Made by a program: the position numbers and the translations under genes. From NCBI GenBank assembly GCA_019359315.1, contig JAHHHO010000028.1:1-64000 (forward strand): DNA of 64,000 nucleotides. Reading direction: 5' to 3'. This document shows, in pieces, positions 34,776-42,511 of this stretch (positions within the stretch are counted from its first letter, which is position 1; the number at the start of each line of letters is the position of its first letter). The notes beneath the pieces were generated by a model. That model ran no database searches, was not told the origin of the DNA, and saw only the letters and a list, made by a program, of their open reading frames with translations. This stretch comes from Myxacorys californica WJT36-NPBG1. Its GTDB lineage: Bacteria; Cyanobacteriota; Cyanobacteriia; Leptolyngbyales; Leptolyngbyaceae.

Positions 34776-37475
34776 TTACTTGTTAGATATTCGGACTGGA
34801 GTCGAGCGAGCTAACACTGTCCAGTATTCTCGCCCGCTAGCATAGCCAAGCTCTACCATGTACGTGCGATCGCTTTGGGGAATTGGCACATCACAACTGA
34901 GCGCCAAATCGTCTACATCAAATTGCTGAAATCTCTCCGGGGCTTCGTGCTCAAGATTGATGTCGGTCACATCGTACAACCGCAGAACGAGATTTTGATC
35001 TACCCGATTGACCGCCGCGCGTTGGCTTCTCGGTACATCCCAGTAGGCATATGCCCATTGAGGATTGCGAGCGGTTAGCACAATGTGTCCTTCAGGTGCA
35101 GTAGACATGCCAGCCGGACGGCTCACGCTAGTGCCCACAGCCGATGAATCGTAGCGATCAATTGTGCGATCGCTGCTGTCAACCTCTGAACCGTTTGGTG
35201 GAGCAGAGGAATTGCGAGCCGGCTCCCGCTCTAACGCTTCGCGCTCCAACGTTGGGGTTCTCTCCGCGTTCTTACCTGACAGGAATGACCAAGCGGCTGC
35301 GGCGGCTCCTGTGGCAGCGGCTGCCCCACCCGTTAATGCTGCATTCCCTGCCTGAGTCGTATCTTCAGCAACGTCCGACGCTTTTTGTTTGAGGCCTTCA
35401 AACACGTTGCTGCTTCTGCCCTGAGACGATTCCTTTGGAGTTGCGCGTTGCGCTGATTGCTCTTCGGTTGTCCAGTTCTGGGGTTCAGGCTGCCCGATCG
35501 CGGAGTCCCGATCCCCGGCTAAAAACGGTCGATCAGAATCGACAGCACCACCTGCCAAAGTAGTGCCACCAGCGACAGTTGCACCACCAGTTTGAGCGGT
35601 GCGACCCAGAAAGGTAGACGAAGCAGGGACATGCACCTGGGCTGACCGAGCAATCGAAATCCATTGACTACTCCTATTGAGGGAGCCTAGCTCGGCTAAA
35701 TAGTCGCGATCGGGCGTTGCGATCGCCAGCCGTTGCCGATGGGTCAATTCATCACAGTCAAACTGCTGTACGCTATGGGGGCTTTGAGTATCCAGATCAA
35801 TATCTGTTACGTCATACAGCCGAATCGCTAGGTTGTTTCCGCCTTGTTGCCGTAGCGATTGCATCTGCTCGGGGGCAATGTCCCAGTACGCTTCTACTTC
35901 TTGCGGAGACCGGGCTTTTAGCACTACGCGTGACTCTCCACCGCGTCCTGCCATATTGCGATTGCCTGAAGCAGACCACGCAGCCGCTCCTGTACCGGCT
36001 GCCACAGCCCCTGCAAATCCTGCCGAGTTGAGCGGTGCGCTATTCGCACTGTCTACAATTGGGTCGCCTATATCTACAATTGGATCGCCTATCAGACCGT
36101 CGCTTTCGATTGTCTGATCCGGAGTCGCTACAAAGCCAGCTTGAGAAGAGTCAGCTTGGAAAGAGCTAGCTTGGGAAGGCTCTCTCCCCCACTGCCGCGC
36201 TGCCCGATCTTCCCGGATGTTGTCTACTCTGCCTACGCCAAGTTGCTCAGTCGAACGATCGACCTCTGGAGGAGTAAAGCCTTGATCGTGAGTTTCTTCC
36301 GGAAATTCATTAGAGCCATAGCCGCCTGTTCTGCTGCCACTGCGCCGACTCTTGCCCAGCAGCCATAGCAGACCTGCACCAGACGCGATCGGGAACAGCC
36401 ACCACCAGTTCAGCCCATCTGCTCTACCTGTACTGGCGGTTCCGTCACCGCCGAACGAAGGTAAAAAGCCAAACAAGCCGCCACCAGAGCCAGATCCGTT
36501 GGCTTTAGAAGGTTTTGCGGCAGAAGGTTTAGCAGCGTTGTAGGTCGTTTGATCGCCTGCTGGACTGGCACTGGTTCCGGCCGCTCCAGTACCTGCTTTA
36601 GCCGCGCCTGCACTTGTAGAAACCGGATCAGCGACTCCAGCTTGCGCGATCGCGGTTTGACTGATAGGCGCAGTCGCAAACCCTAGAAACGCTTGAGCGG
36701 CAGGACTGGGTTTCGCCGCGTTGTAGACGTAGTAGAGCGGTTGTGAGAAAGGATAACGGGGATCACTGGGCGATACACCCTGCATAGGCAAGGCTTTTGC
36801 AGCAGCCTGATTTTTGAGCTGATTCGAGGTAGTATAGCCGATGCCGTTTTTACCGAGTTGTTTGACCAGTGCAGCAGTCGTGTCCACGTTGAGCTTCTTG
36901 GCTGTGCTACCTGTTTCAAACTTTCCTTGCTTAAAGACCGGATAGTTTTGGAACGCTTGACGGGTATCACTGCTAGCGGGTCGATCGATAAATTGAACGG
37001 GCGCAGACGGACCGCCGACTTCTGACCAATTCTTGATCTCGCCTCGGAACATTTTGGCGAACTGACTGCTGTTGAGGCTCTTGGTAAAGGGATTGTTGGG
37101 GCTGACCACGATCGCGATTTTGTCACGACCAATCTGCACGGCGGCGAGTCCTTTCGCTTTTTCTGCTGCGGTTAGAGGACGTCCGATCGCGGCTAGATCG
37201 ACTTTACCATTGACCAAAGCTTGCAATCCTTGCGGTGTGCCTGCGGAGGCTGCCGTGACTTTTGTGCCTGGATATTGCTTCTCGAAGCGCTGTTCTAGCA
37301 CTCGGTTGACGGCAGCCATGCTGCTAGAACCATCGATTCGGACGTTGGTTCCTTTAGGAACAGAACCGGGAAGCTTGAATGCGGTTGCTTGTGCCTCAGC
37401 TGGAGCCTGTGCCATAGACGTAAGACTGAGGGAAAGCGCAAATCCGACAGCTGACAAAGATTTTGAATGCACCAT
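34776..37475 (-). CDS. PstS-like substrate-binding / membrane / double DUF4912 fusion protein
   Basis: A 899-residue protein from the ATG at 37475 (an in-frame TTG at 37496 adds seven residues). After a signal peptide (SAVGFALSLSLTSMAQAPAEA), residues about 35-280 form a phosphate-binding-protein-like domain (VRIDGSSSMAAVNRVLEQRF, VDLAAIGRPLTAAEKAKGL, KMFRGEIKNWSEVGG). A membrane segment (LNWWWLFPIASGAGLLWLLG) and a disordered Ala/Gly/Ser region follow. Two DUF4912 domains (ARSPQEVEAYWDIAPEQ with LAIRLYDVTDIDL, and ARNPQWAYAYWDVPRSQ with LVLRLYDVTDINL) end the protein, predicted cytoplasmic. No Pst transport genes adjoin it. It may link extracellular anion sensing to an inner partner (inference). 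Confidence 0.8.
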   Translation of the reverse strand: MVHSKSLSAVGFALSLSLTSMAQAPAEAQATAFKLPGSVPKGTNVRIDGSSSMAAVNRVLEQRFEKQYPGTKVTAASAGTPQGLQALVNGKVDLAAIGRPLTAAEKAKGLAAVQIGRDKIAIVVSPNNPFTKSLNSSQFAKMFRGEIKNWSEVGGPSAPVQFIDRPASSDTRQAFQNYPVFKQGKFETGSTAKKLNVDTTAALVKQLGKNGIGYTTSNQLKNQAAAKALPMQGVSPSDPRYPFSQPLYYVYNAAKPSPAAQAFLGFATAPISQTAIAQAGVADPVSTSAGAAKAGTGAAGTSASPAGDQTTYNAAKPSAAKPSKANGSGSGGGLFGFLPSFGGDGTASTGRADGLNWWWLFPIASGAGLLWLLGKSRRSGSRTGGYGSNEFPEETHDQGFTPPEVDRSTEQLGVGRVDNIREDRAARQWGREPSQASSFQADSSQAGFVATPDQTIESDGLIGDPIVDIGDPIVDSANSAPLNSAGFAGAVAAGTGAAAWSASGNRNMAGRGGESRVVLKARSPQEVEAYWDIAPEQMQSLRQQGGNNLAIRLYDVTDIDLDTQSPHSVQQFDCDELTHRQRLAIATPDRDYLAELGSLNRSSQWISIARSAQVHVPASSTFLGRTAQTGGATVAGGTTLAGGAVDSDRPFLAGDRDSAIGQPEPQNWTTEEQSAQRATPKESSQGRSSNVFEGLKQKASDVAEDTTQAGNAALTGGAAAATGAAAAAWSFLSGKNAERTPTLEREALEREPARNSSAPPNGSEVDSSDRTIDRYDSSAVGTSVSRPAGMSTAPEGHIVLTARNPQWAYAYWDVPRSQRAAVNRVDQNLVLRLYDVTDINLEHEAPERFQQFDVDDLALSCDVPIPQSDRTYMVELGYASGREYWTVLARSTPVRISNK

Positions 37476-37758
37476 ACTTTTTACCCACGGTAGCAAAAAC
37501 TTTTTTACAACGATGCAGTCCTGTAAGACAAGTCCAAGCGCATACTAAAGCGAATTAAAATCTTTAGAATTTAGCGAAATCAATCGGGCTTGGCATTGTA
37601 AGAGGGGCATGAACCAAACTGAGAAACCCGGTTGGGCATCAATTGGGCATCAATCTTGATTGCCATTACTTTAGGCCAAATTTTAAATTTTAGAAGTATC
37701 GTTAAGAGTTTATTAATATGAGAAGATCAGTAACCGTTCATTTGCTGATCATTATTCT

Positions 37759-39666: not shown

Positions 39667-39723
39667 TGTTTCGGGTTGCTCTCAAACGGTAAGCTCAAAC
39701 ACACAGCGACTGGAGGACACCTC

Positions 39724-40560
39724 ATGGCAATTACCCAAAATGTAGAAGAGGTTGGAGGACTGACTTGGTTTTACCGAGACGCCGAGCCAGAGCGACAAAA
39801 TGACCAGCCTCCGGTGCTGTTGCTACATGGCTTAGTGTCTCAGAGCTACAGTTGGCGGCAGGTGTTGCCTGCTTTAGAAGAACAGGGATTTAGAGCGATC
39901 GCGCCCGATTGGATTGGCTGCGGCTATTCGAGTATGCCGGATCGTCGTGACTTCGCCTACACGCCTGACACCTATATTGAGGCGTTGAGCCAATTTCTCA
40001 AAACGCTTGGACTAGAGCGCATGTCGATTGTGGCTCAAGGCTTTCTAGGCTCAGTTGGCATTCAGTATGCTTTGCGTTATCCAAAGCAAGTTGAGCGGCT
40101 GGCAATTTTTAATGCTCCGATCGCTCAGACAGCAAAATTGCCGTGGAAAATTCGACGGATGGGCATTCCCCTAGCTGGGGACATGATGACGCAAGATCCA
40201 TTACTTGTCGATCGCACCTTAGAAGGCGGTGGCGGATACCAAATTGATGAACAGGATTTAGGGATTTACCGGCGTCCGTGGATTAAAACTTCTGATGCGG
40301 GCCGATCGCTATTAAGGATGATTCAAAATTTGCAGCTTAAGGAATCAACAGCCGAAATCGAAGCAGGCTTATCGCACTGGAAACAGCCGCTTCTAATTGG
40401 ATGGGGAGTGCGCGACCCGTGGTTGTCTATTGAAATGGCAAAAGCTGTTGACCAGGCAGAGTTTGTCGAACTTGATGAAGTAGGGCATTATCCTCAAGAA
40501 GATTGGCATGAGAAAGTCAATGAGGTGTTAATTCCCTTTCTACGACGCCAGATCATCTAG
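39724..40560 (+). CDS. Alpha/beta-hydrolase-fold protein without the usual nucleophile
   Basis: A 278-residue protein. The ATG at 39724 has GGAGG at a good distance; an upstream ATG at 39640 was rejected. The fold is clear: VLLLHGLVSQSYSWR with the oxyanion HG, DWIGCGYSSMPDR, and a haloalkane-dehalogenase-like lid. The nucleophile elbow reads SIVAQGFLGS, with Gly106 where Ser or Asp should be. The acid Asp231 (GVRDPW) and His255 (VGHYP) remain. It may be non-hydrolytic, a binding protein, or use another residue. I recall related plant plastid and cyanobacterial proteins with the same elbow. Confidence 0.85.
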   Translation: MAITQNVEEVGGLTWFYRDAEPERQNDQPPVLLLHGLVSQSYSWRQVLPALEEQGFRAIAPDWIGCGYSSMPDRRDFAYTPDTYIEALSQFLKTLGLERMSIVAQGFLGSVGIQYALRYPKQVERLAIFNAPIAQTAKLPWKIRRMGIPLAGDMMTQDPLLVDRTLEGGGGYQIDEQDLGIYRRPWIKTSDAGRSLLRMIQNLQLKESTAEIEAGLSHWKQPLLIGWGVRDPWLSIEMAKAVDQAEFVELDEVGHYPQEDWHEKVNEVLIPFLRRQII

Positions 40561-40909: not shown

Positions 40910-41656
40910 ATGATCAGCGAAAATCAGCAACCCACTGCTCAGAGTGATAAATCTCAGTACGATAACATTTCTACCAACCCATCCGCAGAGCAGACATACA
41001 GCCGCTCAGCAGATATTAATACAAATGTGGGTTCGCAAACAGTTTCTCAGCCTACTGCTACCAAAGTACAATCTAAATCATCTCAGTCCACGGGTGGTGG
41101 AATGAATCCGATATTAACTAGAGCTTTGATCGGAGGACTGATTGGTACTACCGTGGGTGCTTTGGCTGGTAAAAGAGTTTCGCAAGGTTTTAACTATGCT
41201 TTCAACGGTGTAGGAAAAGCTCTTGGTACGATCGGTCACGGGTTGGGTGAAACTGCCAAAGGGGTCGGTGAAGCTGCTCAAAGCGTCGGTCAGGGCGTGA
41301 GTTACGCTGTCGTTGGTGGAGCTTCGGAAGCAACGCAGAACATTGCTGAAGGAGTACAGCAAGTTGTTTCTGGAAGTACTAATGCAGTTCAGAGTGCAGT
41401 CAAAGGCACGAGTCAAGCAATGGAAAGTACAGCAGCCTCTGTGAAAGATACGACTCAAGAAATGCAGAAGTCTGTGATTGATGCAGCAGACTCAATTAAA
41501 AGCACAGCTGCTGATACTGACCTGCAAACTAGTCAAAATGTGCAGAATCAAACCGAGGAATCATCTAATTACTGGAATGCTGACTCAGAGCCAGTGGTTG
41601 ATGAAATGCTTGTAATCATTGCGGAAGACAATCCTGACAATCCTACTGTTTACTAG
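40910..41656 (+). CDS. Glycine-zipper protein with helical LEA/YtxH-like repeats (1)
   Basis: A 248-residue protein. The first 60 residues are polar and Gln/Ser-rich. A glycine zipper (ALIGGLIGTTVGALAGKRV, about residues 70-88) could cross or bind a membrane. A long alanine-rich amphipathic region follows (IGHGLGETAKGVGEAAQSVG, VQSAVKGTSQAMESTAASVK), like LEA group 3 or YtxH-type stress proteins. The tail is acidic (ADSEPVVDEMLVIIAEDNPD). The ATG has GGAG nearby. The gene at 41909 is a clear relative, 253 bp downstream. Confidence 0.75.
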   Translation: MISENQQPTAQSDKSQYDNISTNPSAEQTYSRSADINTNVGSQTVSQPTATKVQSKSSQSTGGGMNPILTRALIGGLIGTTVGALAGKRVSQGFNYAFNGVGKALGTIGHGLGETAKGVGEAAQSVGQGVSYAVVGGASEATQNIAEGVQQVVSGSTNAVQSAVKGTSQAMESTAASVKDTTQEMQKSVIDAADSIKSTAADTDLQTSQNVQNQTEESSNYWNADSEPVVDEMLVIIAEDNPDNPTVY

Positions 41657-41908
41657 AAGTAAACGATTTAAACTGTGAAACCGTTTCATTTTCAAGGGTT
41701 TCCGAAGGATTGCCTAGAGCAAGGCTGAGATGAAAACTTTCACCTCACAAGATAGCCATAAACATAAAGAAATCCTAGGTTTATGGCTATCTCAAAGGGC
41801 AGCGATAGATGCAGTGTAGAACTCAAAGCTGCTTATTTCTGCATCATATTTTTGTCAATCTAAACAAAAAAATATTCAGCTTAATTTTGATACCAAGGAA
41901 ATGACATC

Positions 41909-42511
41909 ATGAGTAACAACAATTATCTTTTAACTCCCGAAGAAGCAAGTACTGATGAGTCTGCTAATCAATTCGATGACACAACTACTCCAAGCGAGAA
42001 TGGATTTTCAAAAATTGCGATCGGCATTCTGATTGGGGCAGCGCTGGGCGGAATTGCAGGTGCTTTGACGAATAGAAGTACTGTAAATCGAGTGAACCAG
42101 ACTGTCAAAAACGCTGGGAATTCAGTCAAAGGAGCAGCAGTTAGTATTAGCGAAGCTGTGAAAGAAGTCGGTAACGCAGTCAACAGTGTTGCTGTAGGTG
42201 TGAATGAAACCGTTAGAGACGTTGGAAGTGGTATAACGGGTGCGGCTGACGAAGTTACTGAAACCGTAGAAACGACCGTTAGCGCAGTGAAGGACACAAG
42301 TGATGGCATTAATGCAACGATGAAAACTACAGTTGGCGCAGTCCAAAAGACTGTAGCAACGATTCAACAGCCTGACGCTCTTCGCTCCTCTGAACAAGCT
42401 GATGCACAAACTAGTGCACAAACTGAACCCACCGAACAGATCGCTACTGCTTCTGATGGAGAAACGCTTTACCGATTAGTTCCTGTTGCTCAGGATACAT
42501 CTCCTAAGTAA
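41909..42511 (+). CDS. Glycine-zipper protein with helical LEA/YtxH-like repeats (2)
   Basis: A 200-residue relative of the preceding protein with the same order: polar head, glycine zipper (IAIGILIGAALGGIAGALT, about 31-49), then imperfect helical repeats (VKEVGNAVNSVAVGVNETVR, VTETVETTVSAVKDTSDGI), and a polar tail. AAGGAAATGACATC precedes the ATG. Such proteins protect membranes or envelope under drying or cold in other bacteria; here this is only inference. Confidence 0.75.
   Translation: MSNNNYLLTPEEASTDESANQFDDTTTPSENGFSKIAIGILIGAALGGIAGALTNRSTVNRVNQTVKNAGNSVKGAAVSISEAVKEVGNAVNSVAVGVNETVRDVGSGITGAADEVTETVETTVSAVKDTSDGINATMKTTVGAVQKTVATIQQPDALRSSEQADAQTSAQTEPTEQIATASDGETLYRLVPVAQDTSPK

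Follow-up and report, generated by a model that had tools for sequence, protein, structure and literature searches.

A cyanobacterial family of alpha/beta-hydrolase-fold proteins with glycine at the nucleophile position and genomic ties to photosynthesis

Glycine at the nucleophile position

The window, a 64,000-nucleotide stretch of DNA from the cyanobacterium Myxacorys californica WJT36-NPBG1, contains an open reading frame that raises a question: what does an alpha/beta-hydrolase-fold protein do when it keeps the acid and base of the catalytic triad but carries glycine in the place of the nucleophile? The reading frame spans positions 39724..40560 of the forward strand, on which all of the features described for it lie, and encodes 278 aa followed by a stop codon. 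A GGAGG motif, read directly at 39712..39716, ends 7 bases before the ATG at 39724 and is a likely ribosome-binding site. The translated protein scores 69.8 bits against PF00561 (curated cut-off 25.8), which assigns it to the alpha/beta-hydrolase fold. Its elbow segment, SIVAQGFLGS (residues 101-110, 40024..40053), is modeled as a strand followed by a helix. HMMER alignments place Gly106 (codon GGC, 40039..40041), preceded by Gln105 (40036..40038), at the nucleophile position. The putative acid, Asp231 (40414..40416), follows strand 7 in the predicted model, and the putative base is His255 (40486..40488). A sequence-only reading of the window had proposed exactly this combination, and its residue assignments and numbering all hold in the frame opened by ATG 39724.

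Conservation of the elbow was examined in 150 aligned rows (148 different sequences, some species standing twice), composed of the genes of all 108 carriers found in a phylum sample and 42 of the 48 loci confirmed in a contig scan; carriers seen only in a class sample, some of them weaker (down to 1.2e-63), lie outside this set. Gly106 is present in 149 rows, while Gln105, Asp231 and His255 are each found in all 150, and the pattern persists in rows with as little as 44% identity. Six loci (L041, L079, L080, L082, L084 and L085) were left out as partial or frameshifted, and the five of them that span the elbow also read Q-G. The sole exception among the rows, locus L104 from genome G383, carries an in-frame deletion that cuts through this segment. 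This copy (positions 116-895 of the locus) has lost the elbow helix, is otherwise open over 262 residues, has psbQ 1.6 kb away, and is perhaps a decaying gene.

The sequence-only reading would have been undone by another serine or aspartate in the elbow serving as nucleophile, or by a mutation confined to this strain. The alignment rules out both: neither Ser nor Asp is invariant anywhere in the elbow, the residue at 110 being Ser in 131 of 150 rows, Thr in 12, His in 3, Val in 2, Ala in 1 and another in 1, and 149 of 150 rows are incompatible with an isolated mutation or sequencing error at Gly106. The retention of acid and base without the nucleophile is thus a fixed feature of the family. 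Other residues found in every row include Trp15, Arg18, His35, Asp62, Ser69, Tyr79, Asn130, Asp163, Arg164, Glu167, Arg183, Ser190, Arg194, Trp227, Trp233, Tyr256 and Gln258. An alignment of 102 rows, with L104 left out, has 38 invariant columns, so the Asp231-His255 pair belongs to the most constrained part of the protein but is not alone there.

At the same position, 18 other alpha/beta hydrolases, 7 of them drawn from the 22 further matches in the window's own genome, carry Asp (12) or Ser (6) and never Gly. In a tree with these 18 cyanobacterial proteins, 24 Gly-elbow rows form one group with support of 100/99, standing beside the Asp rows. The tree program warned of long branches, which makes the deeper branching order unsure. 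The simplest reading of the sequences is that the nucleophile would have changed from Asp to Gly once and anciently.

Relation to haloalkane dehalogenases

The nearest solved structures by profile are haloalkane dehalogenases (E 2.7e-28). A first predicted model, built from 24 sequences, had pLDDT below 50 in the cap (residues 150-175) and was superseded by a 102-sequence model with a mean pLDDT of 96.5, in which the strand covers residues 100-105 and the helix begins at 106. Each model was used for one Foldseek search of the PDB, and the second also for VIA. The 102-sequence model matches a dehalogenase over the whole length (6y9e_F, Foldseek TM 0.84), and VIA aligns 267 residues to 8ooh_B with Z 33.5 and rmsd 2.0. 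The overall fold, the cap and the His base are shared with the dehalogenases AncHLD2, DbeA, DhaA/HaloTag and the subfamily III enzyme 8ooh. An acid after strand 7 is the arrangement of dehalogenase subfamilies I and III.

The likeness does not extend to the residues of dehalogenase chemistry, and identity is only about 20-28%. Gly106 stands opposite the nucleophile Asp in the HD-W elbow of solved haloalkane dehalogenases. Position 37, after the HG motif, is Leu in 108 and Ile in 42 of the 150 rows, and position 107 is Phe in 142 and Tyr in 8. We take the equivalents of these positions to be the two halide-binding sites of dehalogenases (an Asn or Glu following HG, and a Trp following the nucleophile); the corresponding residues are absent at both aligned positions in all 150 rows. 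None of the 25 NCBIfam models listed reaches its cut-off, and the best three by E-value, all of them haloalkane dehalogenase models, fall widely short (PRK03592, 101 of 241 bits; PRK00870, 88.4 of 265; PRK03204, 58.2 of 466). Three further invariant residues fall at positions of interest in the aligned enzymes. Asn130 (40111..40113) stands opposite the Glu after strand 6 in the alignments to 5mxp and 6y9g and opposite a gap in that to 4wcv; this Glu is presumably the catalytic acid of DhaA-type enzymes. Arg164 of the cap (40213..40215) is opposite DhaA position 171, the mutated site of 4wcv according to the entry title and a position that we believe to lie in the tunnel. Trp233 (40420..40422) aligns with a leucine that 6y9g carries in the loop following strand 7; this loop presumably lines the dehalogenase pocket. 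The dead HaloTag7 D106A variant (7ziz, by its title) offers a parallel, with the same fold, an unreactive nucleophile position and a bound ligand. Its substitution, however, is man-made, whereas that of the Gly-elbow family is natural and fixed.

One likely member of the family has been published as a dehalogenase. Anabaena all1353, a 'putative hydrolase' of 282 aa, was named linB1 from a BLAST comparison with 23.5% identity to LinB, and its transcription was unaltered under lindane, according to the accessible portions of the report (PMC10134481), the only paper found in our literature search to name a likely member. The two published linB1 primers, with starts separated by 39 bases, match one and the same region in the twelve best loci, at best with 4 mismatches in 40 bases, and all twelve loci belong to the Gly-elbow family. 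Judged by this primer match and by its length, all1353 very probably belongs to the family as well. A LinB-type haloalkane dehalogenase, as proposed for all1353, can claim that the best PDB matches by sequence and by fold are dehalogenases, and that a gene so named has primers matching this family. The reading is nonetheless barely credible, given the Gly in place of the nucleophile Asp, the residues at the halide positions, the missed NCBIfam cut-offs and the indifference of linB1 to lindane in the portions of the report seen. Since the family lacks both the nucleophile and the halide-binding residues, a dehalogenase role for all1353 is unlikely, and its linB1 label is probably wrong.

Distribution and linkage to photosynthesis genes

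The gene is present in 108 of 386 genomes sampled from the phylum, as a single copy in each at E <= 1e-30. The family is well separated: in a profile search of this sample all 108 members fall below 1e-100, and the next intact match is at 1.8e-28. In the class sample, a match at E <= 1e-40 is found in 155 of 291 genomes and 83 of 130 genera (144 of 261 among the more complete genomes), leaving 136 genomes without one. All 48 loci confirmed in the contig scan are cyanobacterial, the single-protein patterns used there reaching close relatives only. Gly-elbow proteins are a discrete cyanobacterial family. Searches for a mobile origin led to its rejection: 859 matching plasmid records all have less than 60% identity (about 30% at best among the 30 listed), 16 phage records have at most 29.9% among the 10 listed, and of 40 viral-contig stretches fitting a pattern none was confirmed. 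The sequence-only reading also supposed the same elbow in plastid relatives; the plant proteins At1g52510 and At4g12830 are candidates that may carry the Gln-Gly elbow. In the parts of the literature accessible to us, At1g52510, which is associated with FTSH11, is called a 'hydrolase of unknown function' (PMC6459962) and At4g12830 'uncharacterized' (PMC10255907). Another plant protein, At5g19850, is grouped with pheophytinase-like proteins (PMC5853334) and paired with alr1709 as a cyanoglobule hydrolase (PMC12923008), again in the sections of these papers available.

Neighborhoods were first compared at 43 loci, many of them from Leptolyngbya relatives, with flanks of up to 8 kb. A PsbQ-like gene occurs near the hydrolase at 13 of these loci and a DAO-like gene at 11, with other genes at 9, 8 and 8. 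The former is PsbQ (TIGR03042, 145.8 bits, cut-off 106.9), and the latter encodes a DAO-family flavin oxidoreductase that falls below the ThiO cut-off (219.7 of 250.8). In Anabaena, the home of all1353, psbQ is presumably all1355. We then measured the distance to psbQ, between match edges rather than gene ends, through a PsbQ search of the same 386 genomes. Among the psbQ matches listed, 50 of the 108 carriers, representing 16 of 23 families, have psbQ within 5 kb of the hydrolase, and in each of the 50 the two genes share a strand. Altogether psbQ is listed for 102 carriers: in 27 it is farther away on the same contig, in 25, including the window's own genome, it is on another contig, and for 6 carriers none is listed. 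Two gene orders recur. In 25 genomes the psbQ match starts 10-305 bases downstream of the hydrolase match; the other order, seen in 19 genomes of families f7 and f3, has the psbQ match upstream, its end 1.2-1.8 kb from the hydrolase match. In the loci read with upstream psbQ, the DAO gene sits between psbQ and the hydrolase.

A broader set of 39 neighborhoods from 22 families (41 loci, with L185 and L192 left out for lack of the target gene) drew on 40 genome stretches picked after the distance survey, and so compares neighboring genes with one another, frequencies being given by the 108-carrier survey. In this set psbQ appears in 17 neighborhoods (15 families) and the DAO gene in 17 (14 families). 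A gene encoding about 140 aa, transcribed in the direction opposite to that of the hydrolase, is found in 7 families (L181, L186, L189, L199, L202, L204 and L205) and a DUF393-like gene, named by eye, in 5. Immediately upstream, 6 loci from 3 families have a petA-like gene, which in 5 of them follows a petC-like gene, both named by eye. Every remaining gene occurs in 2 families or fewer, and only psbQ and DAO exceed 7. Our literature search, in which subscription papers are mostly outside coverage, returned no paper linking the Gly-elbow gene with psbQ; the linkage in many relatives is new here.

Whether this linkage carries functional meaning is a question separate from that of the protein's role. 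Gene order can be inherited by phylogenetic inertia, and such an explanation would agree with the 58 of 108 carriers without a listed psbQ within 5 kb and with the nearly as frequent other genes of the Leptolyngbya-rich set. It accords poorly with linkage across 16 of 23 families, always on one strand among the matches listed, with the existence of two gene orders, and with the isolation of psbQ and DAO above all other neighbors in the broader set. We consider inherited order devoid of function unlikely.

A second tie to photosynthesis comes from gene decay in the genus g45. Genome G143 (4.8 Mb) has intact psbA/D and psaA/B matches and an intact hydrolase adjoining psbQ. Its relatives G147, G183 and G266, which we take to be diatom endosymbionts, have genomes of 2.8-3.1 Mb. 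A PF00124 search covering G147 and G183 gave no match in G183 and only fragments in G147, two of three with stops. The psaA/B genes are absent in G147 and reduced in G183 and G266 to pieces, most of them with stops. The hydrolase survives in these genomes only as remnants with stops (16 in G147, 14 in G183 and 5 in the longest piece of G266), and in G147 and G266 the remnants adjoin psbQ remnants that also contain stops. As these genomes are related and reduced, the decay amounts to one or a few events and in part to general gene loss. The decay of the gene alongside photosynthesis genes is a new observation.

The sequence-only reading had supposed an old conserved function in phototrophs. The linkage to psbQ and the decay together with broken photosystem genes support such a function, but the family falls short of all phototrophs: 136 of 291 class genomes are without a match, and near-full psbA/psbD matches are found in 18 of 20 non-carriers listed (the exceptions being G116 and G147). 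The gene is therefore not needed for photosynthesis as such; it is tied to photosynthesis yet dispensable. As a separate matter, G116 lacks a PF00124 (psbA/psbD) match but matches psbQ once and psaA/psaB twice, the latter intact; either the assembly breaks where psbA copies repeat, or the organism is unusual.

Candidate roles of the protein

The reading that we prefer, with a probability of roughly 0.45, is a photosynthesis-linked protein that uses the Asp231-His255 pair without a covalent intermediate. It draws on the fixed Gly106, the pair present in 150 of 150 rows, the score gap separating the family, the linkage to psbQ and the decay in g45. A dehalogenase-like ancestor would have exchanged its nucleophile for Gly, while Asp231-His255, the HG oxyanion loop, Asn130, Arg164, Trp233, Asp163 and Glu167 stayed fixed. 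The space beneath the cap may bind a specific ligand connected with photosynthetic membranes, be it a quinone, a pigment, an isoprenoid or a lipid, and Gly106 would make room near the oxyanion hole for this ligand, water or O2. His255, tuned by Asp231, could then act as a general acid-base, and candidate reactions include proton transfer, elimination, isomerization and the direct addition of water or O2. The protein would act on the cytoplasmic side, since no signal peptide is seen by eye in the 278-aa sequence. Chemistry of this kind has a precedent in HOD/AqdC, whose His-Asp pair serves as the base; these enzymes can do without the elbow Ser, which is naturally Ala in some members, and the acid of HOD is Asp126, 25 residues after that Ser (PMC10548524, in the text available). 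The His and Asp residues of the Gly-elbow family would fit such a scheme, its chemistry being putative. The putative acid of the family, by contrast, is Asp231, and at 24 residues after the elbow it has Asn130 in all 150 rows; relative to the accessible account of HOD, the different placement of the acid would make this a likeness of mechanism rather than kinship. A Gly in place of the catalytic Ser is also described for the plant carboxylesterase-like protein MtHID2 in the available part of PMC10873640.

The same observations accommodate a protein without catalysis, an assembly, carrier or sensing factor of the photosynthetic apparatus whose pocket binds a ligand or partner and whose His-Asp pair only hydrogen-bonds the ligand. 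Non-enzymatic members of the fold arise by losing catalytic residues: the case has been made that AXR4, which has no functional triad, serves a membrane transporter as an accessory protein (PMC10756756), and the triad of NDRG3 is fully substituted (PMC7022630), as stated in the portions of these papers at hand. Linkage to psbQ and petC-petA is a pattern that an assembly factor could show. NDRG3 and AXR4, as far as those portions describe them, resemble the Gly-elbow family in having no working nucleophile, but they have lost the acid-base pair too, whereas here only the nucleophile is gone. The invariance of Asp231 and His255 in 150 rows, unlike such decayed triads, slightly favors His-Asp catalysis over non-catalytic binding, although an invariant pair also fits ligand binding. 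We hold the non-catalytic role to be a quite possible alternative, and the two readings are nearly level. The sequence-only reading had suggested either a changed chemistry, such as a water-activating dyad, or ligand sensing, two options that the observations do not separate. Further points weigh against the preferred reading of His-Asp chemistry: linked genes need not share a step, nearly half of the class genomes do without the gene, 58 of 108 carriers have no listed psbQ within 5 kb, the window's own genome carrying it on a separate contig, and other neighbors in the 43-locus set are nearly as recurrent.

An active hydrolase could also take its nucleophile from elsewhere, and Asp163, Glu167 and Ser190 of the cap, as well as Ser69, are suitable residues present in all 150 rows. 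Ser69, however, belongs to a GxGxS motif after strand 4, which is common in the alpha/beta-hydrolase fold, and the DhaA residues opposite Asp163 and Glu167 are Glu170 and Pro174, for which we know of no catalytic role. The alignments weakly exclude such a nucleophile, and we regard this reading as very unlikely.

A more specific form of the preferred reading can be imagined, though it is improbable as it stands: a cofactor-free enzyme, equipped with the His-Asp pair and an enlarged 'glycine elbow', might carry out the addition of O2 or water to one of the quinones, pigments or lipids of photosynthesis in the upkeep of PSII or b6f, often encoded with psbQ and the flavin oxidoreductase. In any case, a gene annotated as 'putative hydrolase', and once as 'linB1', becomes a candidate photosynthesis gene with a set of partners comprising psbQ, the DAO oxidoreductase and petC-petA, and the family is a natural case of the alpha/beta-hydrolase fold that keeps acid and base and drops the nucleophile. 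A catalytic pair would represent chemistry not yet explored in a very common fold, and a non-catalytic one would make the protein a new accessory factor of oxygenic photosynthesis.

Two other parts of the window contain unusual reading frames. Two adjacent ORFs of 248 and 200 aa on the forward strand (40910-42511) have similar glycine-zipper-like stretches followed by repeats, and by eye resemble a duplicated pair. On the reverse strand, an ORF of 906 residues (34776-37496) appears by eye to combine a phosphate-binding-protein-like domain with a long linker containing two similar repeats.
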